Below are positions 1 through 21,822 of a stretch of 23,016 nt of DNA, piece by piece. The notes under the pieces were generated by a model. That model saw only the letters and a list, made by a program, of their open reading frames with translations. It was not told where the DNA came from and ran no database searches. Both the position numbers and the translations under genes were made by a program. The DNA comes from a virus. The stretch spans positions 1 to 23,016 of IMG/VR virus record IMGVR_UViG_3300033571_012128. One strand, given 5' to 3'. The first letter of the stretch is position 1. Each line of letters opens with the position of its first letter.

Positions 1-819
1 CTCCTACAGGACTGCGCCTAGCAATAGGTTCATCTATGCAAACTTGCCTACATCCGCGAGGATGCGATCATTGATAAGACCGATGGTTGTAACTGTGACG
101 CAAGTGTGTTGGAAAGAATATCTGCTTATGCTCCCGCAAGGGTAAAGCGGGCAGACAGAGAGTAACGGGTAGTGCCGACCTCAACACAATACTAACTTGT
201 TAACAGGCATAGGAAAGAGTAGTGTTTTGATCCGAGGTCTTGCAGCCAAGGGTTGAGACGCAGCATTAACGGTTGATGGGTGCTTCAGGCAAACATTGGT
301 CGTGACATGCGACTGAGTAGTCGAGCAAGACGAAAGGTACGTGGTGTGTTGTATTGCGTAATTCAAAACATTACGCAGCAACAGAGACAGCACATCATAG
401 TAGGTTACAGTTGTAGCACAATGGTAGTGCAACTCCATTTTGAGGAGTCGGCTGGTGGTTCAAATCCATCTAACGATTAAAACGCAAAGTCTGTCTCTAT
501 TGTTGATGAAAAACATCTAACACTCAGGACGCAAGTCAACTGAGTCTCGCGAAGCCCGCAAGGTGTAGTGAGTTTGTACAAAAATATTCGTAACGGTTTA
601 GCGACGGTGAATGGCTCGCAAGGTCAACGGATTAGAAGGTACAGAGTAATCAACGATGAAAGGTCTAATGCCTGACCTTAAAAACGGCGATGTTGGAAGT
701 GTACTGGTGTATCGAAAAGAACATCAGTGGATGTCTGGAGAAGGTTGGTTCGCAAGACTAACTATAATGCCAGAAGCATTTCTAGAAAGGGTGTAATCTC
801 AGCCCTTCTCAATCTTACT
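1..819 (+). ncRNA. Candidate giant structured RNA (GOLLD/ROOL-like), left end may lie outside the window
   Basis: No convincing gene is present on either strand, but hairpins are dense and many are closed by GNRA tetraloops. Seen directly: CCTA-GCAA-TAGG at 17-28; CATCC-GCGA-GGATG at 51-64; CCC-GCAA-GGG at 133-142 inside a TCTGC/GCAGA stem (121-125/151-155); GAC-GCAA-GTC at 528-537 stacked in ACTCAG/CTGAGT (522-527/540-545); GTTGG(T)TC-GCAA-GACTAAC at 744-762; AATGC/GCATT at 767-781. Weaker GCAA loops occur near 100, 558 and 618. GOLLD and ROOL are known large ornate RNAs of phages and prophages, often beside or around tRNAs, and rich in such loops. Family membership and strand are inference: hairpins read on either strand, but GNRA loops and the flanking tRNAs favour plus. 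The structured region may continue to about 1280. Confidence 0.6.
407..478 (+). tRNA. Degenerate tRNA-like element, anticodon TTT (Lys), possibly a pseudo-tRNA
   Basis: D stem GCAC/GTGC (416-419/427-430), anticodon stem ACTCC/GGAGT with loop ATTTTGA (437-443) and T arm GGTGG-TTCAAAT-CCATC are all good. The acceptor stem ACAGTTG/TAACGAT has mismatches at pairs 2 and 3, and no CCA is encoded. It sits within the candidate giant RNA, so it may be a tRNA-like domain or decayed copy rather than a working tRNA-Lys. Confidence 0.5.
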
Positions 820-895
820 GTCCAGTTAGTTCAGCGGCACGAACGCTACCATGACAAGGTAGAGGTCACTGGTTCAATCCCAGTACTGGACACCA
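820..895 (+). tRNA. tRNA-Val (anticodon GAC)
   Basis: Perfect acceptor stem GTCCAGT/ACTGGAC (820-826/885-891), D stem GTTC/GAAC, anticodon stem CTACC/GGTAG with loop ATGACAA giving GAC at 853-855, and T arm ACTGG-TTCAATC-CCAGT. CCA is encoded at 893-895 and is also the first three bases of a long inverted repeat that follows. Confidence 0.93.
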
Positions 896-999
896 TATTG
901 AAGCACACTATATTTTGGACACACCGAAGCACTGAGGTCGTGTGTTATGCCTCTGTTGAGGCGAGATTAGAGACTTCTGCATAGTGTGTTTCAATATGG
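893..999 (+). repeat. Long-stem hairpin 1 (19-bp arms, 69-nt structured loop)
   Basis: Arm 893-911 (CCATATTGAAGCACACTAT) pairs over its full 19 bases with 981-999 (ATAGTGTGTTTCAATATGG), with one G-U pair. The 69-nt loop contains GCCTC-TGTT-GAGGC and ACACAC/GTGTGT. It directly follows tRNA-Val and shares its CCA. A second copy of the same architecture lies at 1079-1208. Function unknown; probably a structured RNA or RNA-processing element. Confidence 0.65.
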
Positions 1000-1078
1000 T
1001 ATATGTAAATGGCGGGTGGCTTCGACCTAAATTGCCCTGCGCAATGAGCAGTTGGGATTACTGAACCTGTCTCTTATA

Positions 1079-1208
1079 CCATATTGAAGCATATTGTTTA
1101 GTCTTATGCATTGCAGCCTCAATCAATGACACTGTCTTAAGATAGTGTAATGGCTAGAGTAAAGCACGGAAAAGACGGTGCTATAATCGGCAGTGTGCTT
1201 CAATATGG
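1079..1208 (+). repeat. Long-stem hairpin 2 (18-bp arms, paralogue of the 893-999 element)
   Basis: Arm 1079-1096 (CCATATTGAAGCATATTG) pairs with 1191-1208 (CAGTGTGCTTCAATATGG) over 18 bases, two of them G-U. The 94-nt loop holds ACACTGTC-TTAA-GATAGTGT (8 bp) and AGCAC/GTGCT. Differences from copy 1 keep the pairing, which points to selection on the RNA stem. A 7-bp stem GTTAGAG/CTCTAAC (1208-1214/1235-1241) and GCCAG/CTGGC follow before the next tRNA. Confidence 0.65.
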
Positions 1209-1289
1209 TTAGAGTAGGGTGGTATGTAAGCAGTCTCTAACTGCCGAGGACTGGGATTCCCGAGCCAGCAACACTGGCACCATATTTTT

Positions 1290-1366
1290 GCCCAGGTGAT
1301 GTAATTGGCAAACATGTTCGGCTCAAACCCGAACTTCTGTGGGTTCGACTCCCACTCTGGGCACCA
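1290..1366 (+). tRNA. tRNA with Leu anticodon CAA on a class I (short variable loop) body
   Basis: Acceptor GCCCAGG/TCTGGGC, D stem ATGT/ACAT, anticodon stem TTCGG/CCGAA with loop CTCAAAC (anticodon CAA, codon TTG), variable loop of only five bases (CTTCT), T arm GTGGG-TTCGACT-CCCAC, discriminator A and encoded CCA. Bacterial tRNA-Leu normally carries a long variable arm, which is missing, so charging by leucyl-tRNA synthetase is uncertain. Confidence 0.85.
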
Positions 1367-1387
1367 ATTTTTAACATGGAGTTTTTT

Positions 1388-1564
1388 ATGTTTAAAATTT
1401 TGTTAGCATTTCTTCTTATTTTTGGTGGATTCTTCTTCGGCATTCAAGCATTCCGAAGTACAACCAAAAAGCAAAAATTGGAGTTGACTAAACTCGTTGG
1501 ATACAGTATACTTTGTTCTGTACTGACAGTTTTATTTTTGACTACATTTGTTTTAATTTTCTAA
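1388..1564 (+). CDS. Small two-helix membrane protein, unknown function
   Basis: 58 residues if started at the ATG at 1388, which has GGAG seven bases upstream; an in-frame ATG at 1376 would add four residues but has no ribosome binding site. Two hydrophobic stretches, residues 3-22 and about 40-57, flank a short basic loop (STTKKQK), predicting a hairpin of two inner-membrane helices. It sits between a tRNA and the SPFH-like lipoprotein gene, 10 bases upstream of the latter, so the two are probably co-transcribed. I do not recognise a family. Confidence 0.7.
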   Translation: MFKILLAFLLIFGGFFFGIQAFRSTTKKQKLELTKLVGYSILCSVLTVLFLTTFVLIF

Positions 1565-1574
1565 GAGGAACAAT

Positions 1575-2378
1575 ATGAAATATTTTGCTACTGTGTCGAT
1601 TGTCACCGCCGTTAGCCTTGCTCTTACGGGTTGTACTCGTATTGAGACTGGTGAAGTCGGGGTTCGAGTTGGGTTTGACAAGCAGGTTCAGCAAGGCGAA
1701 TTGCTCCCTGGCTCATTCAATCAGGTTTTGATTGGCGATGTTTTGACCTTCCCCGTCAAGGATGTTCAGGTCAACGTTTCCAACATGACTCCGCTGGCAA
1801 GTGATAACAGCACCGTCAAGGACTTTGACATGGCTGTGGTTTACAGCATCAATCCTCAGAGTGTTGCTGAACTCTATGTCAACAAGAATCGCAGTTTCCA
1901 CTCTGCAACTGAGGAAGGCGATATCCTTTTGATGTACAATTATGTGTTTCAGGTTGCTCGCAATGCAGCATACAAGAGTGCTCGCAGGTACGAGTCGCTG
2001 AAGATGAATGACAATCGTGCTCAGATTGAGCAGGAAATTCGTGAGAGCATGATTTCTTCTCTCGCCGAAGAAAAGTTGGACGGTTCGATTGTAGTTCAGC
2101 AGATTCTTGTTCGCAGCATTCTGCCCGCAGACAATATTGTCGCGAGCGCAAACGAATTGGTTCGCGCACAGAATGAATTGAAGAAGAAGGAAGTAGAAGT
2201 CGAAACTGCAAAGAAGGAAGCAGAACGTATTGCTGCTCTTAACGCCAACAAGGGCGCTGTTGAGTACATGCAAGCAATGGCGATGATCAACATCAGCGAA
2301 GGCATTCGCGATGGCAAGGTTCAGACCATTGTTGTTCCCGCGAACTTCGATGCTCTGATGTTTAGCGGTAAGAAGTAA
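1575..2378 (+). CDS. SPFH/band 7 (prohibitin-like) lipoprotein
   Basis: 267 residues. The N-terminus is a lipoprotein signal: a hydrophobic stretch ending in the lipobox LTGC with Cys20, so the mature protein should be lipid-anchored outside the inner membrane. After it, TGEVGVRVGFDKQV resembles the start of SPFH domains, followed by a body of the PV-DVQV and DF-MAVVYSINP type. Residues about 190-225 are a charged helix (ELKKKEVEVETAKKEAERIAA), as in the coiled-coil tail of prohibitin and stomatin proteins. Family members form ring or cage scaffolds on membranes. RBS AGAGGAA lies just upstream of the ATG. In a phage this may shape the envelope during infection or exclusion; that role is inference. 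Confidence 0.78.
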   Translation: MKYFATVSIVTAVSLALTGCTRIETGEVGVRVGFDKQVQQGELLPGSFNQVLIGDVLTFPVKDVQVNVSNMTPLASDNSTVKDFDMAVVYSINPQSVAELYVNKNRSFHSATEEGDILLMYNYVFQVARNAAYKSARRYESLKMNDNRAQIEQEIRESMISSLAEEKLDGSIVVQQILVRSILPADNIVASANELVRAQNELKKKEVEVETAKKEAERIAALNANKGAVEYMQAMAMINISEGIRDGKVQTIVVPANFDALMFSGKK

Positions 2379-2393
2379 TAAATAAAGTTTAAT

Positions 2394-2469
2394 GCGCTCG
2401 TAGTCTAGTGGATAAGGCATCTGCCTTCTAAGCAGAATGACGCAGGTTCGAATCCTGCCGAGCGCGCCA
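2394..2469 (+). tRNA. tRNA-Arg (anticodon TCT)
   Basis: Perfect acceptor GCGCTCG/CGAGCGC, anticodon stem TCTGC/GCAGA with loop CTTCTAA (anticodon TCT, codon AGA), T arm GCAGG-TTCGAAT-CCTGC, encoded CCA. First of a run of five closely spaced tRNAs. Confidence 0.95.
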
Positions 2470-2478
2470 TTTTAACAC

Positions 2479-2566
2479 GGAGATTGCTGAGGTTGGCTCC
2501 TCGAACGGTCTTGAAAATCGTAGTACTGAGAAATCGGTAATAGTTCGATGCTATCAATCTCCGCCA
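2479..2566 (+). tRNA. tRNA-Ser (anticodon TGA)
   Basis: Acceptor GGAGATT/AATCTCC, anticodon stem ACGGT/ATCGT with loop CTTGAAA (anticodon TGA, codon TCA), long variable arm as expected for class II serine tRNA, T loop TTCGATG, discriminator G and encoded CCA. Confidence 0.92.
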
Positions 2567-2573
2567 TTTTTAT

Positions 2574-2650
2574 GCCCCCGTAGCCCAACTGGCAGAGGCG
2601 TTAGTCTTAGGAACTAATCAGTGACAGTTCGAATCTGTCCGAGGGCACCA
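2574..2650 (+). tRNA. tRNA with Leu anticodon TAG on a class I body
   Basis: Acceptor GCCCCCG/CGAGGGC (one C-A mismatch), D stem GCC/GGC, anticodon stem TTAGT/ACTAA with loop CTTAGGA (anticodon TAG, codon CTA), five-base variable loop TCAGT, T arm GACAG-TTCGAAT-CTGTC, A and CCA. It lacks the long variable arm of normal tRNA-Leu, like those at 1290 and 4517. Confidence 0.88.
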
Positions 2651-2656
2651 GTTTAT

Positions 2657-2732
2657 GCATGGTTGGTCTGAGAGGTTAAGCGTCACCTTTACACGGTGAA
2701 TCATGTAGGTTCGAGTCCTACACCATGCACCA
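2657..2732 (+). tRNA. tRNA-Val (anticodon TAC)
   Basis: Perfect acceptor GCATGGT/ACCATGC, anticodon stem TCACC/GGTGA with loop TTTACAC (anticodon TAC, codon GTA), T arm GTAGG-TTCGAGT-CCTAC, discriminator A, encoded CCA. The D arm is weakly paired. Confidence 0.92.
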
Positions 2733-2738
2733 GTTTTT

Positions 2739-2812
2739 GCGGGTATGATGTAATGGTTGCCTGTGACCTTGCCAAGGTTATCGTGCGAGTTCGATTCTCG
2801 CTACCCGCTCCA
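2739..2812 (+). tRNA. tRNA-Gly (anticodon GCC)
   Basis: Perfect acceptor GCGGGTA/TACCCGC, anticodon stem TGACC/GGTTA with loop TTGCCAA (anticodon GCC, codon GGC), T loop TTCGATT, discriminator T and encoded CCA. U73 is typical of bacterial tRNA-Gly. Confidence 0.93.
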
Positions 2813-2831
2813 CTTTTGAAAGGAATATAAT

Positions 2832-3041
2832 ATGAAAAAGATTCTGGTCAGTTTTTCTATCCTCGCCCTACTCTCTGGTTGTGGTGGCTTTGAAGACACT
2901 ATTAGCAGCACAGCGAATGGATACACTGTGCGGTGTATCGAGGGGACCAAGTATGTCATCATCAACAGCGGAAAGGGTGTTGCCGTAACTGCTCTTGTTG
3001 ACACTGATGGTAAACCAAAGGCTTGTGTTGAGGATAAATAA
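2832..3041 (+). CDS. Small lipoprotein, unknown function
   Basis: 69 residues. A classic lipoprotein signal peptide (MKK start, hydrophobic core, lipobox LSGC with Cys17) predicts a short lipid-anchored protein of about 53 residues. The mature part has two further Cys residues (in VRCIE and KACVE) that could form a disulfide. RBS AAAGGAA lies seven to eight bases before the ATG. It stands between tRNA-Gly and tRNA-Ser and is the second lipoprotein in this cluster. Surface lipoproteins of phages sometimes mediate superinfection exclusion; that is only a possibility here. Confidence 0.75.
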   Translation: MKKILVSFSILALLSGCGGFEDTISSTANGYTVRCIEGTKYVIINSGKGVAVTALVDTDGKPKACVEDK

Positions 3042-3049
3042 ATTTAATT

Positions 3050-3135
3050 GGAAGGTAAAGCAGAGAGGATCTGTCGCTGTTTGCTAAACAGATGGTTTCT
3101 TCGGGGATGTGTTTCGAGTACACTGCCTTCCGCCA
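3050..3135 (+). tRNA. tRNA-Ser (anticodon GCT)
   Basis: Acceptor GGAAGGT/GCCTTCC, anticodon loop TTGCTAA (anticodon GCT, codon AGC) on a CTGT/ACAG stem, long variable arm with a TTCG loop, T loop TTCGAGT between GTGT and ACAC, discriminator G and encoded CCA. Starts nine bases after the lipoprotein stop codon. Confidence 0.92.
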
Positions 3136-3138
3136 TTC

Positions 3139-3230
3139 GCTCCTGTAGTGTAAGGTAGCACGACGGGACTTATAATCCCGATTCGCCAGATTAGCGGTTA
3201 GTCTTGGTTCAAGTCCAAGCGGGAGCACCA
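3139..3230 (+). tRNA. tRNA with Ile anticodon TAT and an unusually long variable region
   Basis: Acceptor GCTCCTG/CGGGAGC, D arm GTG/CAC, anticodon stem CGGGA/TCCCG with loop CTTATAA (anticodon TAT, codon ATA), T arm CTTGG-TTCAAGT-CCAAG, A and CCA. The variable region (3181-3202) is 22 bases, as in class II tRNAs, whereas tRNA-Ile normally has a short one. Identity is therefore uncertain. Confidence 0.82.
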
Positions 3231-3254
3231 ATTCTATCATTTTTCAATTCACCC

Positions 3255-3283
3255 TTTACTTTTCTGGTCAAATGTGATAAGGT
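3255..3283 (+). promoter_or_regulatory. Weak sigma70-like promoter candidate
   Basis: TTTACT, 17 bases, TAAGGT. The -10 is poor, but the position, 7 bases before the ATG at 3291, would give a leaderless or very short leader, which weakens the call. Confidence 0.25.
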
Positions 3284-3290
3284 AAGGGGT

Positions 3291-3884
3291 ATGAAGAAGT
3301 ATCACAAACTTTTTGCAGCACTGCTCCTTTTTCCCGTCGGGGAAATTTCTGCGAAAACGGTCGAAGTTCCCTATCAATGGGTTGAATATTGTCAACTAGA
3401 AGGATCAAATGATCCATCTTGCAGCGATGAAATTGACACATCGAAGCCCGTGAAATTTAAAGAAGAGGAACTTCTACCGATTTTGCACAAAGTCAATTTT
3501 AAATATAACCAGTTTCGATTCGCCGCCGACAAACCCAAGTATGGGAAAATGGATAGGTGGACATCAACCCTCGGTGATAGGAAAATTGATTTTTTCTATT
3601 CGGCGAGTGGTGATTGCGATGACTTTGTTTTGTCTAAAAGAAAAGAACTCTTAAGTTTGGGAATCCCGAACTCGATGATGTATATCACTCTGGTGAAAGT
3701 TAATGCGTATGCAGATGAGATGCATATGATTCTTGTCGTCAAAAACGGAAGGAAGTATTACGTTCTCGACAATATCAAAAAGATCGAGATCGTTGAAACG
3801 GTGGACTCGAATTATATTGGACTGTTTCACATGAATCCGATTGACAAGAAGTGGTATACAATTCATTCAAAGACTCTTAGATAA
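3291..3884 (+). CDS. Secreted transglutaminase-like cysteine peptidase (C93/BTLCP, LapG-type)
   Basis: 197 residues from the ATG at 3291, with GGTAAGGGG just upstream. Residues 1-21 look like a signal peptide (hydrophobic FAALLLFPVG, then ISAKT), so the enzyme should act in the periplasm. The catalytic layout of the bacterial transglutaminase-like cysteine proteinase family is visible: Cys109 in SGDCDDFVLSKRKELLSLGIP-type sequence, His145 in EMHMILVV and Asp160 in YVLDN. The best-known member, LapG, cleaves a large surface adhesin in response to low c-di-GMP and releases cells from biofilms. Whether this phage protein cuts an adhesin, a phage protein or something else is unknown; family placement is firm, substrate is inference. 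Confidence 0.82.
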   Translation: MKKYHKLFAALLLFPVGEISAKTVEVPYQWVEYCQLEGSNDPSCSDEIDTSKPVKFKEEELLPILHKVNFKYNQFRFAADKPKYGKMDRWTSTLGDRKIDFFYSASGDCDDFVLSKRKELLSLGIPNSMMYITLVKVNAYADEMHMILVVKNGRKYYVLDNIKKIEIVETVDSNYIGLFHMNPIDKKWYTIHSKTLR

Positions 3885-3887
3885 ATA
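3880..3887 (+). promoter_or_regulatory. T4-type late promoter candidate (GATAAATA)
   Basis: GATAAATA differs by one base from the T4 late consensus TATAAATA. It overlaps the stop of the peptidase gene and lies 29 bases before the ATG at 3917, a normal distance for a late promoter with a short leader. Confidence 0.5.
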
Positions 3888-3916
3888 TCTGGAGTTATTT
3901 TTGAGGATTTATCACC

Positions 3917-4327
3917 ATGCTTTCCTTTAAATCTTTCATTAAAGAAAATTCAGATATAGGTATTAACGTAAGAAGCGACACCGAGGCTGGTATATCGTAT
4001 GCAGATAAAATTGTAGACGGTGAAAAATATTATGAAACTCGCGATACAAATTCTCTTAAGCCTTATATCGGTAAACGAGTTTCCATCGTAAAAACTGGAG
4101 AAGGAAAGGCTAAAGCGATAGGTGCTGTTACGATAGGTGAACCAGTTGTTGTGGATGAAACAGAATTCAGAAAATTGCACACTAAACATCTTGTCCCGAT
4201 GGGTTCTCAATTTGATATAAAACCGAATGGAACAAAGCATCTATATCCGATGTTAGATCCAGAAAGATATGATAAAGAACGTGATGTCGCACATGGTATT
4301 ATTTCAAGAAAAGTTTTGGGACTATAG
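3917..4327 (+). CDS. ASCH-domain-like protein with a T4-type capsid-targeting N-terminus
   Basis: 136 residues. The start MLSFKSFIKE-N matches the spacing of the T4 capsid-targeting sequence (M-x-x-F/Y-x-x-F/Y-I-x-E), which ends in the I-x-E site cut by prohead protease gp21; this suggests packaging into the head. The middle (KYYETRD, then YIGKRVSIVKTG and AIGAVTIGEP) resembles ASCH domains, RNA-binding beta-barrels with a conserved K-x-x-E-x-R region; this call is by eye and moderate. A late-promoter-like GATAAATA is 29 bases upstream. The TAG stop lies inside tRNA-Met (its bases 8-10). Confidence 0.6.
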   Translation: MLSFKSFIKENSDIGINVRSDTEAGISYADKIVDGEKYYETRDTNSLKPYIGKRVSIVKTGEGKAKAIGAVTIGEPVVVDETEFRKLHTKHLVPMGSQFDIKPNGTKHLYPMLDPERYDKERDVAHGIISRKVLGL

Positions 4328-4393
4328 CATAACGGTCAATGCAGAGAACTCATAATTCTTTGATTCTAGGTTCAAATCCTAGTGGTCCCACCA
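4318..4393 (+). tRNA. tRNA-Met (anticodon CAT), overlapping the upstream gene
   Basis: Acceptor GGGACTA/TGGTCCC, D stem GCAT/ATGC, anticodon stem GAGAA/TTCTT with loop CTCATAA (CAT), T arm CTAGG-TTCAAAT-CCTAG, A and CCA. The first ten bases overlap the ASCH-like gene, whose TAG stop is T8-A9-G10 of the tRNA. Paired 1:72 end suggests an elongator Met; a tRNA-Ile read after lysidine modification of CAT cannot be excluded. Confidence 0.93.
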
Positions 4394-4395
4394 GT

Positions 4396-4424
4396 TTGAC
4401 TTTGCTATATAAATGTAGTATGAT
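4396..4424 (+). promoter_or_regulatory. Sigma70-type promoter for tRNA-Pro and tRNA-Leu
   Basis: TTGACT (4396-4401), 17-base spacer, TATGAT (4419-4424), ending nine bases before tRNA-Pro. Confidence 0.65.
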
Positions 4425-4432
4425 ACAAAAAT

Positions 4433-4508
4433 CAGGGTGTAACTCAATTGGTAGAGTGCGACGTTTGGGGCGTCGAAGTTGGAGGTTCGAGTCCTCTCAC
4501 CTTGACCA
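4433..4508 (+). tRNA. tRNA-Pro (anticodon TGG)
   Basis: Acceptor CAGGGTG/CACCTTG starting with C1 as usual for tRNA-Pro, anticodon stem CGACG/CGTCG with loop TTTGGGG (anticodon TGG, codon CCA), T loop TTCGAGT, A and CCA encoded. Confidence 0.94.
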
Positions 4509-4516
4509 AATTTTTG

Positions 4517-4590
4517 GCGAGTGTAGCGCAATCGGCAGAGGCATGAGACTTAAAATCTCAAAAGTGTGGGTTCGAATCCCACCACTCGCA
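4517..4590 (+). tRNA. tRNA with Leu anticodon TAA on a class I body, no encoded CCA
   Basis: Perfect acceptor GCGAGTG/CACTCGC, anticodon stem TGAGA/TCTCA with loop CTTAAAA (anticodon TAA, codon TTA), five-base variable loop AAAGT, T arm GTGGG-TTCGAAT-CCCAC, discriminator A. The genome continues CACA, so CCA must be added. Third Leu anticodon in this window without the long variable arm. Confidence 0.9.
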
Positions 4591-4595
4591 CACAT

Positions 4596-4620
4596 GAGCC
4601 TCCGTCAAGGCTCGAACTTT
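4596..4620 (+). terminator. Rho-independent terminator after the tRNA run
   Basis: Stem GAGCCT/AGGCTC (4596-4601/4608-4613), loop CCGTCA, followed by GAACTTTT. The T run continues directly into a late promoter, a compact end-and-restart arrangement. Confidence 0.7.
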
Positions 4621-4628
4621 TATAAATA
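4621..4628 (+). promoter_or_regulatory. T4-type late promoter (TATAAATA)
   Basis: Exact TATAAATA, 23 bases before the ATG of the GIY-YIG gene, with RBS CAGGAGA between them. Confidence 0.65.
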
Positions 4629-4650
4629 CATATAGTAACAGGAGATTCCT

Positions 4651-5292
4651 ATGTTCTATATCGTTTATAAGACGACAAATCAGGTCAATGGCAAGTTCTA
4701 TATTGGAACTCATAAGACCGTTGAACTGAATGACGATTATTTGGGTTCTGGGAAGTATTTGAAATACGCCATACAAAAATATGGTATCGAGAATTTCAAA
4801 AAAGAAATTCTGTTTGTATTTGATAATCCAGAAGATATGTTTGCTAAAGAAGCCGAGATAGTTACTGAAGAATTCATTAGTGAAAACAATACATACAATC
4901 TCAAGAAAGGTGGCTTCGGTGGGTTTGATTATGTAAATTCTTTAATTGACCAATCTTGGAAGGTTGAGAATGGTAAAAAATCACTCCACATGCAAAAAGT
5001 GAATACTGATCCAACATACAGAAAAAAACTAAATGAATCTGTATCAACAAGATTAAAAATATGGCATAAGGAAAGAAAAATATCTGCCCCCAATTGGAAA
5101 GGTAAAAAGCATACGGAAGAAAGTAAAAAGAAAATCAGCGAAAAACTGGCAATATCTTCTAAAGGGAGCAAAAATTCTCAATACGGTAAAATGTGGATTC
5201 ACAATAAAAGTTTAAAAAATAGTATTAGAATCAACAAAAACGATCCACTTCCATATGGTTGGGAATTAGGTAGAAAAATTAAATGGGATTAA
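4651..5292 (+). CDS. GIY-YIG homing endonuclease (Seg-like)
   Basis: 213 residues. The N-terminal nuclease domain shows the paired motifs YIVYKTTN (residues 3-10) and KFYIGTHKT (15-23), then YLGSGKYLKYAIQKYG and a Glu-rich helix containing the likely metal-binding Glu (FAKEAEIVTEEFI). The C-terminal half is Lys-rich with KKHTEESKKKISEKL and GKMWIHNKSLKNSIRI, DNA-binding modules typical of free-standing phage homing enzymes such as T4 Seg proteins. It is inserted inside the tRNA cluster, preceded by a terminator and its own late promoter, as expected for a mobile gene. It should cut a recipient tRNA region lacking the insertion; target not known. Confidence 0.88.
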   Translation: MFYIVYKTTNQVNGKFYIGTHKTVELNDDYLGSGKYLKYAIQKYGIENFKKEILFVFDNPEDMFAKEAEIVTEEFISENNTYNLKKGGFGGFDYVNSLIDQSWKVENGKKSLHMQKVNTDPTYRKKLNESVSTRLKIWHKERKISAPNWKGKKHTEESKKKISEKLAISSKGSKNSQYGKMWIHNKSLKNSIRINKNDPLPYGWELGRKIKWD

Positions 5293-5312
5293 CGCAGAGT
5301 TTGGCAAAAGAT

Positions 5313-5387
5313 GCGGAAATCGTATAAGGGCTATTATGTCGGTCTTCCAAACCGATGATGAGGGTTCGAATCCCTCTTTCCGCACCA
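5313..5387 (+). tRNA. tRNA-Gly (anticodon TCC)
   Basis: Perfect acceptor GCGGAAA/TTTCCGC, anticodon stem TCGGT/ACCGA with loop CTTCCAA (anticodon TCC, codon GGA), T arm GAGGG-TTCGAAT-CCCTC, A and CCA. D arm weakly paired. Confidence 0.92.
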
Positions 5388-5400
5388 TTTAGGATCGTAT

Positions 5401-5577
5401 ATGTTTGATAGTAGAATCGCTTCTGAAGAAGTCAAGAATCAAAGATTGGCAATTTGCCAAAAATGCGAACACAATAAAATCGGTGTTTGCTCTAAATGCG
5501 GATGCATTCTCAAATTAAAAACTCAATGGAAAACGACAATGTGCCCCGTCGGTAAGTGGGGACCATCGCCTTCGTAG
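5401..5577 (+). CDS. Small zinc-ribbon phage protein
   Basis: 58 residues, ATG at 5401 with AGGA eight bases upstream. Cysteines are arranged C-x-x-C (19, 22), C-x-x-C-x-C (30, 33, 35) and C48 in TMCPVGKW, a pattern seen in many small zinc-binding proteins of T4-like phages (RLAICQKCEH then CSKCGC then CPVGKW). Role unknown. Its 3' end overlaps the next tRNA by ten bases and its TAG stop is T8-A9-G10 of that tRNA. Confidence 0.8.
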   Translation: MFDSRIASEEVKNQRLAICQKCEHNKIGVCSKCGCILKLKTQWKTTMCPVGKWGPSPS

Positions 5578-5643
5578 TCTAGTGGATAAGGCATCAGTTT
5601 CCTAAACTGAAAAACACAGGTTCGAATCCTGTCGAGGGCACCA
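5568..5643 (+). tRNA. tRNA-Arg (anticodon CCT), overlapping the upstream gene
   Basis: Acceptor GCCTTCG/CGAGGGC (one T-G pair), anticodon stem TCAGT/ACTGA with loop TTCCTAA (anticodon CCT, codon AGG), T arm ACAGG-TTCGAAT-CCTGT, A and CCA. Its body resembles the tRNA-Arg(TCT) at 2394 (GTCTAGTGGATAAGGCATC in both), suggesting duplication. Confidence 0.94.
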
Positions 5644-5656
5644 TTTAAAACATAAC

Positions 5657-5732
5657 GCGGATGTAACTCAGTGGATAGAGACTCAGGCTTCGAACCTGAT
5701 GGTCGGGAGTTCGAATCTCTCCATCCGCGCCA
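5657..5732 (+). tRNA. tRNA-Arg (anticodon TCG)
   Basis: Perfect acceptor GCGGATG/CATCCGC, anticodon stem TCAGG/CCTGA with loop CTTCGAA (anticodon TCG, codon CGA), T arm GGGAG-TTCGAAT-CTCTC, discriminator G and CCA. Confidence 0.94.
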
Positions 5733-5737
5733 CTTTT

Positions 5738-6061
5738 ATGACAGAAACAAAAAAATTCAAATTCGAAGACTTACAACCTCACATAGACATGCTATGTGAT
5801 GCCTTAGAGAATAGGGGGGCGTCCTCATCTGGAGTCCCCAACGAAAAAGTCTATCCTCAAGCCCGAGCATATAGAAATTTGCTCACACAAATAAGAAAAC
5901 AGCAAATTTCTGGCCGAGATGTTCTATTAATTCTCGGTACTCTAAGGAATGAAACACTAGAACTAACGGGCAACAATCAAAGACATAGAATTGTAAAATT
6001 GCTGGACGCGCTCCAAATATACATGACAAAGGAATATGCTAAATACAACCATATTCAATAG
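5738..6061 (+). CDS. Unknown phage protein, 107 residues
   Basis: Start taken at the ATG at 5738, because the in-frame ATG at 5699 lies inside tRNA-Arg. No obvious Shine-Dalgarno is seen, and the ATG is only six bases after the tRNA CCA, so processing of the tRNA would leave a nearly leaderless message. The protein is soluble and mostly helical (LQPHIDMLCDALENRG, SGRDVLLILGTL). I do not recognise a family. Confidence 0.65.
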   Translation: MTETKKFKFEDLQPHIDMLCDALENRGASSSGVPNEKVYPQARAYRNLLTQIRKQQISGRDVLLILGTLRNETLELTGNNQRHRIVKLLDALQIYMTKEYAKYNHIQ

Positions 6062-6076
6062 TTCTTGGAGTATATT

Positions 6077-6301
6077 ATGGAATATCAGAACGTTTTAGAT
6101 CTAATTGATCAGATCAGCGCAGTCAATCTAAGCGAAGCCTACATTTCGGTGGAATCCGAAAAAGTAGACGATTTGATCAAATTTTTAAAAGAAAACAACG
6201 TCCAAGCGTCACCTACCCAGTGGAATTCTCCAGAAAGTCTCTATATCGGAGAAGGCCAAACTGCGTCCAAACAACTGACCGTTTTGGCCATATCTTTCTG
6301 A
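6077..6301 (+). CDS. Unknown small acidic protein, 74 residues
   Basis: Starts at ATG 6077 with TTGGAG six bases upstream; an in-frame TTG at 6065 is less likely because it overlaps that site. Helix-rich acidic protein (VLDLIDQISAV, KVDDLIKFLKENN). It follows the 107-residue gene by 15 bases, so they are likely one transcript. No family recognised. Confidence 0.65.
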   Translation: MEYQNVLDLIDQISAVNLSEAYISVESEKVDDLIKFLKENNVQASPTQWNSPESLYIGEGQTASKQLTVLAISF

Positions 6302-6315
6302 TAAAACGGGAAAAA

Positions 6316-6323
6316 CATAAATA
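6316..6323 (+). promoter_or_regulatory. T4-type late promoter candidate (CATAAATA)
   Basis: CATAAATA in an A/T-rich tract, 36 bases before the ATG at 6360, whose protein carries a capsid-targeting-like start. Late timing fits a head-packaged protein. Confidence 0.5.
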
Positions 6324-6359
6324 TAAAATACTCATCCCCTTAACTAAAGGTGCCTTCAA

Positions 6360-7490
6360 ATGTTAGGATTTAAGCAATATATTGTCGAAAAAGAACTCAA
6401 AGAATTCTCTTTTGAAATGGATAATTTCATTTCTTTGTTTGAGGGCGTTCTTGATGAGATGAAATTGACCGATATTCCCATAAAGGTTGAAAATCCTAAT
6501 GTTCATGTTGCATCAGAACATCCAACCACCCCATCTAGCGGCATTCCTTCACCGAGTGAAGAGGGCGGGAATCACTGGCATAAAGTTCGTGAGGGGGCGG
6601 AAAAATATTTTAATGCTTCTCCAGAAGAACAGCGAGCAATGAGAACAGAAGCGAAGAGAGTTCTCGGAGAAGGGAATCTTTTGGGGAACGAAGCATCGAA
6701 TCCAAAGTTAGCCAAGTCTGGTGAAAAGATTCCAGAATATACTACTAAGGCTCTGTCACTGGCACCGTCAACCATGTCTGGTATTGATGTGTGCCCAGCA
6801 GCATCAAAAGAATGTAAGGCTGCTTGCTTAGGATCTGCTGCGGGTCGCGGTACAATGTCAAATGTACGTCGCGGACGTATCAACAAAACACTCAAATTCT
6901 TCGATCACCCACATTTGTTTTACGCTAAACTCGACAATGAAATTGAGAATGCAAAGAAAACTGCGACTAGAAAGGGTAAAAAACTTGCAGTTCGTTTAAA
7001 TGTTTTGTCAGATATTCCTCATGAACATCTAGCACCAAAATTATTTGAAAAGCATGGCGACGTTTCATTCTATGATTATACTAAAATTGCTGGTAGAACT
7101 AATCATAAAAGAAAGCCATCAAATTATCATCTTACCCTATCATCAACTGGATTGAATCACGACGAAAGTAATTGGAATCAAGTTCGTAGACATCTAGATA
7201 GAGGTGGTGTTGCGGCGATGGCATTTAACATTCCATCACGCGGTAAAAAATCATCAACTCCACTTCCGACACATGTTCATGATGAAGAAACTGGTAAATC
7301 ATATCCCGTTATTGATGGCGACGAACATGATCACCGTCATTTAGACAAAGCCATCCACGGTATTCCAGAAAATCGGGGTGTTATTGCTGGCCTTAAATTT
7401 AAGGGCGGCGGTCCAAACATTGAAAGAGCGGGTAATTTCGCCGTTGAACACAACAATGGTATTGCAGTAGCCAAAAAGGGTGAAAATTAA
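6360..7490 (+). CDS. 376-residue Cys-motif protein with a T4-type capsid-targeting N-terminus
   Basis: The start MLGFKQYIVE-K has the same M-x-x-F-x-x-Y/F-I-x-E pattern as the protein at 3917 and as T4 internal proteins, followed by a second possible protease site (LFEG). After a Pro/Ser-rich linker (about residues 45-75), the core shows SLAPSTMSGIDVCPAAS, then C-x-x-x-C in KECKAACLGSAAGRG, then NVRRGRINKTLKFF, then conserved-looking VLSDIPHE and a C-terminal part rich in His (HVHDEE, DEHDHRHLD). Three clustered Cys and several His could bind metal. I recognise this as a type present in phages but cannot name a function. Late promoter candidate 36 bases upstream. Confidence 0.7.
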   Translation: MLGFKQYIVEKELKEFSFEMDNFISLFEGVLDEMKLTDIPIKVENPNVHVASEHPTTPSSGIPSPSEEGGNHWHKVREGAEKYFNASPEEQRAMRTEAKRVLGEGNLLGNEASNPKLAKSGEKIPEYTTKALSLAPSTMSGIDVCPAASKECKAACLGSAAGRGTMSNVRRGRINKTLKFFDHPHLFYAKLDNEIENAKKTATRKGKKLAVRLNVLSDIPHEHLAPKLFEKHGDVSFYDYTKIAGRTNHKRKPSNYHLTLSSTGLNHDESNWNQVRRHLDRGGVAAMAFNIPSRGKKSSTPLPTHVHDEETGKSYPVIDGDEHDHRHLDKAIHGIPENRGVIAGLKFKGGGPNIERAGNFAVEHNNGIAVAKKGEN

Positions 7491-7496
7491 TATTGC

Positions 7497-7532
7497 TTGA
7501 TTTTTAATAAATTTAGATTTATAATATAAATA
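7497..7532 (+). promoter_or_regulatory. Overlapping early (sigma70) and late (TATAAATA) promoters
   Basis: TTGATT (7497-7502), 17 bases, TATAAT (7520-7525), and an exact TATAAATA at 7525-7532 overlapping by one base. Both face the HNH gene starting at 7563. Confidence 0.6.
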
Positions 7533-7562
7533 TTGTGATGTTAAATTGAAGGAGATTGTGTC

Positions 7563-8135
7563 GTGTCATTGGTATTGGTTGTAGACAAGGGTGGTGCTCC
7601 AAAAGACTGGTGCGATTTTGAAATCGCTGCTTGCTATTACGCAAAGGAAAAGGTCGTTTGGGAACTCGGCGAAAAATTGAAGACCATGCTGGGTGGATAC
7701 AACCAGTATGGAGAACAATCACGGATTGACATTTCGTCAATCATCGGTGTGAGTGGTCCTATTCTTGGCGACAAGTTTTACAACACACAGACTGTGTTCG
7801 CTGATCGTATGACGCTGTATGCCCGCGATCAGTACATCTGCGCATATTGTGGTGATGAATTCAACACTAGCCAATTGACCATCGATCACGTGCTGCCAAA
7901 GTCACGCGGCGGTAAGAATTACTGGTCAAACTGTGTGACTGCATGCCGTGTGTGCAATCATCGTAAGGGCTGGAAGACACCAGAAGAAGCAAAGATGCAT
8001 CTGCTCTATGTTCCGTATGCACCAACAGTGCATGAAAGAATTCTTTTGAAGAATCGAAAGGTTCTTGCGGACCAAATGGAATTCTTGAAGGCAAGCATTC
8101 CAAAGACCAGTCGAGTCTGGAGGAAAGCGGCGTGA
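7563..8135 (+). CDS. HNH endonuclease
   Basis: 190 residues, GTG start at 7563 with AAGGAGA about eight bases upstream. The C-terminal half is an HNH nuclease of the zinc-stabilised type: C93-x-x-C96 in CAYCG, the catalytic D108-H109 in LTIDHVLPKSRGG, N123 region (WSNCVTACRVC) with C128-x-x-C131, and N132-H133 in CNHRKG. The N-terminal 90 residues are of unknown function and may direct target choice. It may be a homing enzyme or a DNA-processing nuclease. Its TGA overlaps the GTG of the following 38-residue gene. Confidence 0.85.
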   Translation: MSLVLVVDKGGAPKDWCDFEIAACYYAKEKVVWELGEKLKTMLGGYNQYGEQSRIDISSIIGVSGPILGDKFYNTQTVFADRMTLYARDQYICAYCGDEFNTSQLTIDHVLPKSRGGKNYWSNCVTACRVCNHRKGWKTPEEAKMHLLYVPYAPTVHERILLKNRKVLADQMEFLKASIPKTSRVWRKAA

Positions 8136-8248
8136 GCGGAAAGGGTAGTAAGCCTAGACCGCTGAGTGTTCCCAGAAAACAGTTTGATGAGAACTGGGAA
8201 CGCATCTTCGGGAAGAAAAAGCAGCAAAAGAATAAAATTGCGGGGTAG
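8132..8248 (+). CDS. Short conserved phage protein (SGKGSKPRP type), 38 residues
   Basis: GTG start at 8132 overlaps the TGA of the HNH gene (GTGA). The sequence opens MSGKGSKPRPLSV and continues to QFDENWERIFGKKK, a pattern I recognise as a very short basic protein recurring in many phages with no known function. It ends KIAG with TAG at 8246-8248, which is T8-A9-G10 of the next tRNA, so it overlaps that tRNA by ten bases. Confidence 0.75.
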   Translation: MSGKGSKPRPLSVPRKQFDENWERIFGKKKQQKNKIAG

Positions 8249-8313
8249 TTCAGTAGCAGAACATCGGACTCATAATCCGAGGGTCGGTGGTGCAATTCCA
8301 TCCCCCGCTACCA
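8239..8313 (+). tRNA. tRNA-Met (anticodon CAT), initiator-like
   Basis: Acceptor TGCGGGG/CCCCGCT has a T-T mismatch at pair 1:72, the place where bacterial initiator tRNA is unpaired, and the body GCGGGGT...CCCCCGC resembles initiator tRNA. D stem GTTC/GAAC, anticodon stem TCGGA/TCCGA with loop CTCATAA. It lacks the three G-C pairs of the initiator anticodon stem, and the T loop TGCAATT is odd. CCA encoded. Confidence 0.85.
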
Positions 8314-18099: not shown

Positions 18100-18264
18100 A
18101 TGGATCTGCCCATTACTATTGATGAACTTCGAATCATTGTGGTTGCTCTGGAGAAGGCTGGCGTTGCAGACATCGCCGACCGACTGAAGTTGGTTGAGCA
18201 GTTGATGGTTGAAGGCAAACCATACAAGAAGATTCTCCGCGAACAATACAATATTGTTGCTTGA
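18100..18264 (+). CDS. Unknown small protein, 54 residues
   Basis: RBS GTGAGG about nine bases before the ATG. The protein (MDLPITIDELRIIVVALEKAG, then a helix ending LVEQLMVEGKPYKKIL) is acidic and helical. First gene of the peroxiredoxin unit. No family recognised. Confidence 0.65.
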   Translation: MDLPITIDELRIIVVALEKAGVADIADRLKLVEQLMVEGKPYKKILREQYNIVA

Positions 18265-18313
18265 TATGACGTATGAAGAATTTTTATGGAGTTTAAACGA
18301 AAAGGAGTTGACT

Positions 18314-18892
18314 ATGAAAACAGTTGGACATAAGTTGTCAAAATTTACCATCACTGGCGTAAAGCCTGGTGCCCTCACACCCGACGATGCATTTGAAACC
18401 ATCGATGAAACATCATTTTTTGGACAGTGGAAGATCTTCGTGTTTTATCCGAAGGACTTCACTTTTGTGTGCCCCACAGAAATTCTTGCCTACGACGAGT
18501 TGAACAAGGAGTTCACTGATCGTGATGCAGTTCTACTCATCGGTTCGACCGACAACGAGTTTTGCAAGTTGGCTTGGAAGAATGTACATGAGGGCTTGAA
18601 GAAGACCACTTGCTGGTTCTTTGCTGATACACATCGCGGCAGTGAATACTACGAAGAAACGACTGTAGGGCTGGTTGATCAACTTGGAGCATTTGACCTA
18701 CAGCATGGTGCCGCACTTCGTGCAACGTTCATCGTCGATCCAGATAATGTCATTCAGCACGTGACCGTAAACAATCTGAATGTCGGTCGCAATGCTGATG
18801 AGACACTGCGTGTTCTTGATGCACTTCAGACGAATGAACTGTGCGCATGCAACCGCCAGATCGGCGAAGCGACACTGAGCAACGCACTTTGA
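18314..18892 (+). CDS. ahpC: AhpC-type 2-Cys peroxiredoxin
   Basis: 192 residues from ATG 18314 (AAAGGAG seven bases upstream); an in-frame ATG at 18266 would add 16 residues but has no ribosome binding site. The peroxidatic site is FYPKDFTFVCPTE with Cys53, and the resolving Cys is in ELCAC (177 and 179). GSTDNEFCKLAW and ATFIVDPDNVIQHV are typical of AhpC. The enzyme reduces hydrogen and organic peroxides; with the glutaredoxin upstream it gives the phage a redox-defence kit. Host AhpF or thioredoxin would be its reductant. A metabolic gene probably taken from a host. Confidence 0.9.
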   Translation: MKTVGHKLSKFTITGVKPGALTPDDAFETIDETSFFGQWKIFVFYPKDFTFVCPTEILAYDELNKEFTDRDAVLLIGSTDNEFCKLAWKNVHEGLKKTTCWFFADTHRGSEYYEETTVGLVDQLGAFDLQHGAALRATFIVDPDNVIQHVTVNNLNVGRNADETLRVLDALQTNELCACNRQIGEATLSNAL

Positions 18893-19002
18893 AGAACTAC
18901 ATTCTAGATTTTATTAGGGACTGGGGGTTGATTTTAGTTCCCGTTGTGATGTTTGTGGCATTTTGGGCTATCTTACATTTTTTTCCGCAAATTTTATACT
19001 AA
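18889..19002 (+). CDS. Small single-span membrane protein, 37 residues
   Basis: TTG start overlapping the peroxiredoxin TGA (TTGA). Residues about 12-32, WGLILVPVVMFVAFWAILHFF, form one transmembrane helix with a charged N-terminal KNYILDFIRD. The overlap start and clean membrane helix make it plausible, but no family supports it. Confidence 0.5.
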   Translation: MKNYILDFIRDWGLILVPVVMFVAFWAILHFFPQILY

Positions 19003-19014
19003 AGGTAACAACAC

Positions 19015-19251
19015 ATGAAGAAACTAATTTTGACCCTCGCCCTAGCAGCCTCTCCCGTCTTTGCTCAAGATCGTGTCTCACAATACGATTTTGATAAGGA
19101 TGGAAAGGTATCTTTCGAAGACATCAATCGGTATTGCACAGTCTCTCAGAGCCTGTTCAAACAGGCTGATAAGAACGGAGACGGCTTCCTGTCGAACTTA
19201 GAAATGAGCACGGCACGACGCTATTTGTTCTCGCGGTGCGAGGCTAAATAA
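19015..19251 (+). CDS. Secreted EF-hand calcium-binding protein, 78 residues
   Basis: RBS AAAGGTAAC. A signal peptide (MKKLILTLALAASPVFA, likely cut before QDR) exports it to the periplasm. Two canonical 12-residue EF-hand loops follow: D25-F-D27-K-D29-G-K-V-S-F-E-D36 and D52-K-N54-G-D56-G-F-L-S-N-L-E63, with all ligand positions filled. Cys41 and Cys75 could form a disulfide. Short EF-hand proteins of this kind occur in proteobacterial periplasms; in a phage it may buffer calcium or aid the cell-wall hydrolase. That role is inference. Confidence 0.85.
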   Translation: MKKLILTLALAASPVFAQDRVSQYDFDKDGKVSFEDINRYCTVSQSLFKQADKNGDGFLSNLEMSTARRYLFSRCEAK

Positions 19252-19273
19252 TACTCTTAAATGAGGATTAAAC

Positions 19274-19432
19274 ATGACTCAGACAAATAAAAATCGTTGT
19301 AGTTGTGGAAGAAGTCCAACGGGATATTGTGTCGGACTGCATTCAATGACAAATGAGCAGTATAAGGCTCATCTTGATGTGCAGCAGAAGCAGTTGAACG
19401 AACAGGTCAAGCCACAACTGCTAAAGGGATAA
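19274..19432 (+). CDS. Small Cys/His protein, CDGSH-like motif, 52 residues
   Basis: ATG 19274 with TGAGGA upstream. The segment RCSCGRSPTGYCVGLHSMTNEQY has C-x-C-x-x-S-x-x-x-x-C-x-G-x-H, one residue shorter than the CDGSH iron-sulfur signature, and I recall similar CxCGRSPTGxCxGxH proteins in cyanobacteria and phages. It may bind iron-sulfur or zinc. The C-terminal helix is Gln-rich. It is the last gene before the tmRNA. Confidence 0.65.
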   Translation: MTQTNKNRCSCGRSPTGYCVGLHSMTNEQYKAHLDVQQKQLNEQVKPQLLKG

Positions 19433-19578
19433 TGCGTGTGATGGGGACTGGAAACTTGTAATCTCCAGTCTTAAACGAAGAGATTTCTCTCGCCCGCTAT
19501 TAGGATAAAGGAATAATGGTAGTCAACCTTTGACTAAAGGTGTTCTGGACTCGGGTTCGACCCCCGACATCTCCACCA

Positions 19579-19630
19579 AATTATCAGATGCCCACCACCT
19601 CTGCAGTAATGTACGTGGTGGCTTTCCGAC
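19579..19630 (+). other. Intervening segment removed from the permuted tmRNA
   Basis: Lies between the acceptor CCA and the GGGG 5' end and holds a 7-bp hairpin (19592-19598 with 19615-19621). In other permuted tmRNAs such a segment links the acceptor ends in the precursor and is cut out. Confidence 0.8.
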
Positions 19631-19717
19631 GGGGATGAATTTGGCTTCGACAGGGCAAGTAATAAACCAAAGGCTACCCGAAAGGCGACGAACGTAATTC
19701 GCGCAAACAAAGTAAAC

Positions 19718-19756
19718 GCAAACGATGATGTTTACGACATGGCTCTTGCGGCTTAA
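19718..19756 (+). other. ssrA: tmRNA proteolysis-tag reading frame
   Basis: Resume codon GCA at 19718, then AAC GAT GAT GTT TAC GAC ATG GCT CTT GCG GCT, stop TAA at 19754-19756, giving ANDDVYDMALAA. The AND start and the ALAA end match bacterial tmRNA tags, ALAA being the ClpXP recognition end. Confidence 0.93.
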
Positions 19757-19852
19757 GCCGATTTAGAATACCTGAGTTTTCGGTGGGTTTTCTTGGAAAC
19801 AGAATAAACGCACCATTTGTCATAACACAAACAACACACAAAGGAGAATATT

Positions 19853-20086
19853 ATGACACCATATGAAATTAGACTAGCGTTAGTAACCTTGGCAAAAGAT
19901 ATGTTGCATGATGAGTATCATACAGCCAGATCGTCAATTTCAGAGATCTGGAATTGGAAATGCTCACAAGCACTTGAACACAATAGCCCTATGCCACCAC
20001 TACCAGAATATCCAGAGTACTTCACCGAGAATGATGTAATCGAAAAAGCAACACGCTTAAACGAGTTCATTTCAAACGGTAAGTAA
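19853..20086 (+). CDS. Conserved small phage protein (MTPYEIR type), 77 residues
   Basis: RBS AAAGGAGAAT. Begins MTPYEIRLALVTLAKDMLHDEYHTARSSI, a start I recognise in small proteins of T4-like phages, with LNEFISNGK at the end. Helical, soluble, function unknown. It is the only gene between the tmRNA and the strong terminator, so it could share the tmRNA transcript. Confidence 0.75.
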   Translation: MTPYEIRLALVTLAKDMLHDEYHTARSSISEIWNWKCSQALEHNSPMPPLPEYPEYFTENDVIEKATRLNEFISNGK

Positions 20087-20092
20087 CCCTGG

Positions 20093-20121
20093 GGGTGGCG
20101 GTGGTCCGCCACCCTTTCTTT
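20093..20121 (+). terminator. Strong rho-independent terminator
   Basis: GGGTGGCGG-TGGT-CCGCCACCC, nine perfect pairs (20093-20114), followed by TTTCTTTCC. Confidence 0.9.
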
Positions 20122-20145
20122 CCTCTGCAATAATGGAGAAACAAC

Positions 20146-20772
20146 ATGAATGCAGTAGACATACTTCGTAGTGTAGAAAACTTTTTTAATCGTAATCACA
20201 ACTTTTTCTGCCTATGGGGCGGGCTGTTCGCTATGATATTCTTTGGACTTTATGTCCCATTCAATATCTACAGCAGAACGATGGAAATGTATGAAGCCCA
20301 GATTAGAACTAATCAAGTTCTAACGTCTCAATTGGATCACATGAGTCGTCGAGTTGAATTTTTAAATCTGTCTTATGATCAGCAGCGCAAAGTTCGCACT
20401 GAAGTTGAGTGTCTTGCAAAGAACATTTACTTTGAAGCGGGATCCGAATCTCGTGCTGGTAAAATCGCTGTCGCTGAAGTCACGATGAATCGAGTCAAGA
20501 GCAGAGAGTTCCCGCGAACCGTTTGTGGTGTTGTCTATCAGCGGACTCGAAACACTTGTCAATTTTCTTGGGTATGCCAAGGAAAGAATACAATTCGTCC
20601 GAGTTCTGTGTGGAATGAATCGTACAAGATTGCCGAGAATATTTTGATTTCAAAGAAAAGTTACGGTATAATTGGATCTGCAAAGTATTTCCATGCGACG
20701 TATGTAAACCCAGCATGGGCTACTGAGAAGAGAGTTGTAAATCAAATTGGAAACCATATTTTTTATCATTGA
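20146..20772 (+). CDS. Membrane-anchored SleB-type cell-wall hydrolase
   Basis: 208 residues. Residues about 20-40 (FFCLWGGLFAMIFFGLYVPF) are an uncleaved membrane anchor, followed by a coiled coil (50-85) and a Hydrolase_2 domain of the SleB/CwlJ type: CLAKNIYFEAGSES with likely catalytic Glu97, IAVAEVTMNRVKSREFPRTVCGVVYQ, QFSWVCQG and KYFHATYVNPAW. Such enzymes are muramidases or lytic transglycosylases. Anchored topology puts the domain in the periplasm, where it could help lysis or wall opening during infection. Own transcript after the terminator; RBS TGGAGA. Confidence 0.88.
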   Translation: MNAVDILRSVENFFNRNHNFFCLWGGLFAMIFFGLYVPFNIYSRTMEMYEAQIRTNQVLTSQLDHMSRRVEFLNLSYDQQRKVRTEVECLAKNIYFEAGSESRAGKIAVAEVTMNRVKSREFPRTVCGVVYQRTRNTCQFSWVCQGKNTIRPSSVWNESYKIAENILISKKSYGIIGSAKYFHATYVNPAWATEKRVVNQIGNHIFYH

Positions 20773-20778
20773 GGTTTT

Positions 20779-21822
20779 ATGCGTATACTAGATGATGTGA
20801 AGTTAGACTATAAAGACGTTCTGATCACACCGAAGCGATCTTCGTTGTCATCTAGAAGTGAAGTGAAACTTGAAAGGTTGTTTACTTTCCGATCTTACAA
20901 TTCTTGGTTTGGTGTTCCAATCATTGCCGCCAATATGGACGGTGTCGGCACTTTTGATATGGATGCCGAATTGAACAGGCATCGATGTATGGTTGCACTC
21001 ACCAAGCACCAAAAAGATACTGATTTGATTGAACACTTTTCAAAGAAATTGGAAAGTTCCATTTACTCCTTGGGTATCAGCGAATGTGATTTGCAGAAGT
21101 TTGACAACGTGTATAGCGTAGTCGGTAATCGATTGATGCGCGTTTGCATTGATGTCGCCAATGGATATACGCAATCGTTTGTTGACTTCATTAAGAAGTT
21201 CCGTGATCGATATCCCAGCGTTATTCTTATTGCTGGTAATGTTGTCACGGCGGAAATGACAGAAGAACTGATCCTCGCTGGTGTTGACATTGTGAAGGTT
21301 GGGATTGGTCCAGGGGCGGTGTGCACGACTAGGAAGATGACGGGAATCGGCTATCCACAATTGAGCGCGGTGATTGAGTGTGCTGATGCGGCTCACGGTC
21401 TCAAGGGTCATATCATTGCTGATGGTGGGTGCACGGTGGCTGGGGATGTGGTGAAGGCATTCGCCGCTGGTGCCGATTTTGTGATGCTCGGATCAATGCT
21501 TGCTGGGCATAAGGAAGGATTGCCCGCTGGATATACAGACACACTAGAAGGGCAAAGCCTAGTTGATTTCTATGGCATGAGTTCTAAGTCAGCCATGGAT
21601 TTGCATAATGGCGGAGTTGCTAATTACCGTGCATCGGAAGGCAAGCACGTAAAACTTCGCTACAAAGGTCCAGTTGCAAATACGATGCAAGAAATTCTGG
21701 GAGGGCTGCGTTCGGCATGCACTTATGTTGGCGCGTCTGAACTCAAGGAACTTCCAAAGCGAACTACGTTTGTTCGTGTCACTCAACAATTAAATACCAG
21801 TTTGAACGCATATGAAATCTAA
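20779..21822 (+). CDS. guaC: GMP reductase
   Basis: 347 residues, the exact length of Escherichia coli GuaC, and alignable along it. Active-site loop [24 protein letters not shown] with Cys182; ANMDGVGTF near the N-terminus; [61 protein letters not shown] at the end. No CBS domains are present, unlike many IMP dehydrogenases. The enzyme reduces GMP to IMP with NADPH, moving guanine nucleotides toward adenine synthesis. It follows the hydrolase gene by six bases and overlaps gene 33 by 11 bases, so all are one operon. A rare metabolic gene for a phage as far as I know. Confidence 0.93.

Follow-up and report, generated by a model that had tools for sequence, protein, structure and literature searches.

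A circularly permuted tmRNA and its degradation tag among T4-like phage genes

Known two-piece tmRNAs and the RNA of the window

The two-piece phage tmRNA is an already known kind of RNA. A count in 2021 flagged 53 two-piece structures among 18,146 phage genomes, 50 of them marine or aquatic (PMC9004378), and 79 phage sequences, counting every form, are in the current tmRNA database (PMC11915505). For Methylophilales phage Melnitz (MZ577097), a two-piece tmRNA (ssrA) was published, which was grouped with alphaproteobacterial tmRNA by its authors and is adjoined by a glutamine riboswitch (PMC9004378). Most reports of phage tmRNAs in the literature surveyed came from genome sequences and included no functional test. 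The stretch of a virus record analysed here (23,016 bases, hereafter the window) adds a member to this kind.

The analysis confirmed that the window encodes, at approximately 19518-19814, a complete two-piece tmRNA that is circularly permuted and has a degradation tag of its own. ARAGORN produced a permuted call (tmRNA*) spanning 19486-19847 with the tag ANDDVYDMALAA. The Rfam scan matched the full length (1-213) of the tmRNA_permuted model (RF04321, cut-off 47 bits) at 19518-19756 with 138.9 bits and an E-value of 1.2e-27. Among the lineage models, beta_tmRNA (RF01850) scored best with 108.5 bits (cut-off 84). The preliminary description of this DNA had named alpha_tmRNA (RF01849) as the model to search with; it passed its cut-off of 50 with 91.6 bits at 19445-19814 but remained below beta_tmRNA, and cyano_tmRNA (RF01851) with 37 bits was under its cut-off of 70. 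Scores with beta_tmRNA reached 138.9 bits within the subfamily of the window and 180.6 bits among other phages, where typical members scored higher than the window and differed from it in spacer and tail. The RNA is closest to the betaproteobacterial model by score, not by demonstrated descent.

Melnitz resembled the window in its RF04321 score (113.4 bits, over the cut-off), in the slot between PhoH/PDDEXK and gp33/gp59 genes, and in a tag also ending in ALAA (ANDNYVPVDYALAA). However, its spacer was much longer and its tag different, the beta model scored best for the window, and no riboswitch was listed in the window by the default Rfam scan. Among cultured phages, Stenotrophomonas phages Marzo and DLP_6 and Acinetobacter phage BUCT628 (loci L102, L103 and L104) scored 119.0, 136.8 and 123.9 bits with RF04321, respectively, all over the cut-off; the tmRNA gene was unannotated in the DLP_6 and BUCT628 records. 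All three were permuted according to ARAGORN but had other spacers and tags, and their DNA was closely similar to the window only at the T-arm region. The one Acinetobacter baumannii tmRNA checked was one-piece, so that BUCT628 and its host genus differ in form.

The preliminary description had also called a phage copy uncommon, which did not hold: 99 IMG/VR stretches fit one strict pattern, in addition to the 53 two-piece phage structures cited above, and judging by these sequences a phage tmRNA copy is not rare within the T4-like group. ARAGORN gave a permuted call in every stretch read except one (L041), whose match sits at the contig edge, and misplaced the tag in another (L064).

Structure and covariation of the two pieces

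All the parts described earlier were found, on the plus strand and in permuted order, with the acceptor piece and its CCA ahead of the coding piece and a spacer between them. The acceptor piece (19518..19578), which begins where the RF04321 match starts, is the tRNA-like 3' half and, by pair counts, also holds the 5' strands of the helices that join the two pieces. It contains the T stem-loop (19551-19567) and the acceptor 3' strand CATCTCC (19568-19574, from pair counts), and ends with A73 and CCA (19575-19578). The intervening spacer (19579..19630), which is expected to be removed, carries a hairpin of CCACCAC (19592-19598) with GTGGTGG (19615-19621). The coding piece up to the resume codon (19631..19717, placed by Rfam and pair counts) opens with the acceptor 5' strand GGGGATG (19631-19637) and includes a D-loop-like TGGCTTCGAC, the 3' strands of the inter-piece helices (19651-19657, 19668-19673 and 19674-19678, from pair counts), a small hairpin (19689-19701) and a conserved box preceding the resume codon. 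The tag frame follows from the resume codon GCA to the stop TAA (19718..19756, by both ARAGORN and Rfam).

GGGGATG does pair with CATCTCC, though not perfectly as first described, since the third pair is a G-U wobble. This G3-U70 wobble, the established alanine identity element, was invariant, appearing as U-G in 31/31 diverse phage sequences. The 11 further bases said to join the two halves were correct (GGTAG/CTACC plus CCTTTG/CAAAGG), and a third inter-piece helix of 7 pairs (TGTTCTG/CAGGGCA) was found closer to the tRNA-like core. All three helices carried two-sided changes in relatives.

The 3' tail (19757..19814) likely forms an H-type pseudoknot, read by eye, with stem 1 at 19776-19781 with 19795-19800 and stem 2 at 19782-19790 with 19806-19814 (8/9 pairs); the 3' end of the RNA likely fits a pseudoknot ending at 19814. 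Analogous tail stems were present in relatives as GACC/GGTC, as AACC/GGTT in L064 and as GACTCA/TGAGTC in L016. A terminator-like hairpin past the next small ORF (20091..20116, plus strand, from a consensus scan only) is a possible candidate for the end of the tmRNA transcript. On the other side, the RNA had been given as 19446-19815, and the alpha_tmRNA match lies near that extent, but conservation among relatives begins only at about 19513. Upstream of this point the sequence of relatives is unrelated, with the end of a protein gene in some, so positions 19446-19512 are probably outside the mature RNA, and for the same reason an upstream hairpin at 19445-19471 was not accepted as belonging to the conserved structure.

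The spacer hairpin type was common to 55 sequences including the window, 31 of them distinct. Across 27 close relatives, all distinct, pairing was kept in 97.7% of cells and 10/41 pairs showed two-sided changes. None of 500 shuffles matched this, a count that is not a probability because the sequences are related; sliding the structure, a control that preserves relatedness, lowered pairing to 33-51% with zero two-sided pairs. Among 31 diverse phage sequences, the core helices paired in 98.8% of cells with two-sided changes at 9/19 pairs. A chance origin is excluded by the E-values together with the shuffled and slid controls. Close DNA relatives were absent at E 1e-5 among 50,697 phage records; with E raised to 1, the matches in these records were short and none spanned more than 19% of the query. 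A plasmid search likewise gave nothing beyond short matches. Overall, Rfam, ARAGORN, covariation and phage synteny concur, which supports the identity of a phage-encoded permuted tmRNA with its own tag, as the preliminary description had proposed.

The spacer itself was as conserved as the mature pieces by substitution count. Its hairpin was paired in 27/27 distinct relatives, among which one pair appeared as C-G, U-A and U-G, and the loop CCTCTGCAGNAATGTACGTG of the hairpin (19592-19621) was present in 48/100 loci. A plain tRNA-like cut-out would not predict a conserved spacer, which counts against the rescue reading preferred below; the simplest guess for a spacer that is conserved though expected to be discarded is a processing signal.

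The conserved coding piece bears on whether the RNA could instead be a decoy, in which the tRNA-like domain would titrate SmpB and block the host tmRNA. A phage tRNA-like domain acting in this manner has a precedent in mycobacteriophage DS6A, whose tRNA-like-only RNA was proposed to inhibit tmRNA (PMC4131195, PMC11915505). However, a full tag frame, a resume-codon box and the structure of the coding piece were all conserved and would be needless for a decoy, which makes this explanation very improbable.

Genomic slot and tag variation

The window contains T4-like genes, namely PhoH, a PDDEXK exonuclease, endolysin, the late-transcription coactivator gp33 and the helicase loader gp59. In relatives whose contig reaches far enough for comparison, the order was largely kept as PhoH, PDDEXK nuclease, AhpC, EF-hand protein, tmRNA, endolysin, IMPDH, gp33 and gp59. 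Four more distant loci whose spacers and tags are different (L026, L031, L087 and L088) again had the nuclease on one side of the tmRNA and gp33/gp59 on the other, and the slot was common to dozens of separate contigs and to Melnitz with its annotated tmRNA. The tmRNA backbone differed by about 6%, and the neighbouring proteins were mostly 55-85% identical to those of the window. The fixed slot, including distant phages and Melnitz, therefore points to long retention of the tmRNA in T4-like phages rather than stray capture. The idea that the locus has no phage role, being either a host gene fragment that was captured or part of a chimeric contig, is already contradicted and barely credible: imprecise excision is able to bring ssrA pieces into phages (PMC9004378), but phage genes flank the tmRNA on both sides, the slot is identical across the separate contigs, and two strict patterns had zero matches in the cellular genome collection, which excludes only near-identical cellular genes.

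Other features of the window were also recorded. Metabolic host-like genes flank the tmRNA (18209-21822) and are kept in many relatives; they include an AhpC/TSA peroxiredoxin (18209-18892), an EF-hand protein (19015-19251) and an IMPDH/GMP reductase (20779-21822). A small ORF (19274-19432) with a CxCGxSxxxxCxGxH motif adjoins the tmRNA in many relatives; it looks CDGSH-like, but Pfam lent this no support, giving no match at a threshold as loose as E 10. The stretch 407-8313 holds fifteen tRNA genes, with small ORFs scattered between them and two homing/HNH endonuclease-like ORFs (4651-5292 and 7563-8135). A GOLLD RNA (341-805, 218.1 bits) lies at the start of this array with a tRNA-Lys inside it (407-478).

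Ten further tags were found in the subfamily beside that of the window. Every one started with AND, ended with xAA (nearly all LAA or MAA) and was 12 to 14 residues long, with the frame maintained and length differences of whole codons. The mean pairwise difference was 0.207 in the tag and approximately 0.06 in the acceptor piece, the spacer and the pre-tag coding part. Of the 69 locus pairs whose two flanks each reach 94% identity or more, and which are not independent, 11 carried different tags. Several genome pairs about 98% identical on both sides had a changed tag and 3' tail with the rest almost constant; the flanks of loci L036 and L040, for example, were 98.2% and 98.7% identical, yet these loci differed in tag and tail, and L040 had an additional small gene downstream. 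From such pairs, the tag-tail block looks like it was swapped between phages by recombination, an exchange for which no earlier description was found in a narrow literature search. In addition, the DLP_6 tag ANDDSFAPMAIAA resembled the subfamily tag ANDDSFTPMALAA despite differing backbones.

This variation would be expected if the phage RNA competed with the host tmRNA and its tag rerouted rescued proteins, to another protease or adaptor or into slower decay, while diversifying under host pressure. The raised tag divergence, the differing tags between near-identical flanks and the block that differs between L036 and L040 all agree with such a role. However, all tags retain the AND start and an xAA ending, in nearly all of them LAA or MAA, the usual degron, and recombination among phages could reshuffle a stretch that tolerates change with no selection at work, so rerouting appears unlikely. 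A broader proposal, that the tmRNA is a fixed component, the tag a fast-changing exchangeable module selected to steer rescued proteins against the host through protease or adaptor choice, and the spacer hairpin kept for a function of its own, is quite unlikely and is offered as speculation.

Ribosome rescue as the proposed role

The reading preferred here is a functional two-piece phage tmRNA that would carry out ordinary trans-translation with host partners, to which we assign a probability of roughly 0.8 on the basis of the permuted order, the covarying structure, the alanine element, the tag frame and the fixed locus. The steps that we infer are processing, charging, tagging and a benefit to the phage. 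The transcript would be processed like a tRNA, exposing the CCA end, removing the spacer and making the 5' end of GGGGATG, and the resulting acceptor RNA and coding RNA would stay together through the acceptor stem plus some 18 additional pairs. The RNA would be charged with alanine by the host AlaRS and brought by host SmpB and EF-Tu to ribosomes stalled on broken mRNAs. Translation would resume at GCA, add A+ANDDVYDMALAA and stop at TAA.

Host factors would be needed because genes for SmpB and SspB were absent from the 20 and 21 tmRNA-bearing phage records searched, respectively, many of them fragmentary; the window contig, like most relatives, is a fragment, and SmpB could sit elsewhere in the phage of the window. 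The tag frame has a resume codon, a stop and a hydrophobic degron end, and the tag, once the charged alanine is counted, is AANDDVY-DM-ALAA. Apart from two inserted residues it is similar to AANDENYALAA, the tag of E. coli, and the tagged product would therefore be expected to be degraded by ClpXP-type proteases via the -ALAA end. The phage would benefit from ribosomes being freed while mRNAs are cut during infection. Both roles suggested earlier, rescue during RNA degradation and redirected proteolysis, are plausible as putative functions.

Overall, phages can retain a permuted tmRNA as a lasting gene. Dozens of natural variants occupy one slot with a near-constant scaffold and a changing tag, and this family lets one ask whether phages keep a tmRNA for freeing ribosomes alone or also for choosing which proteins are degraded.
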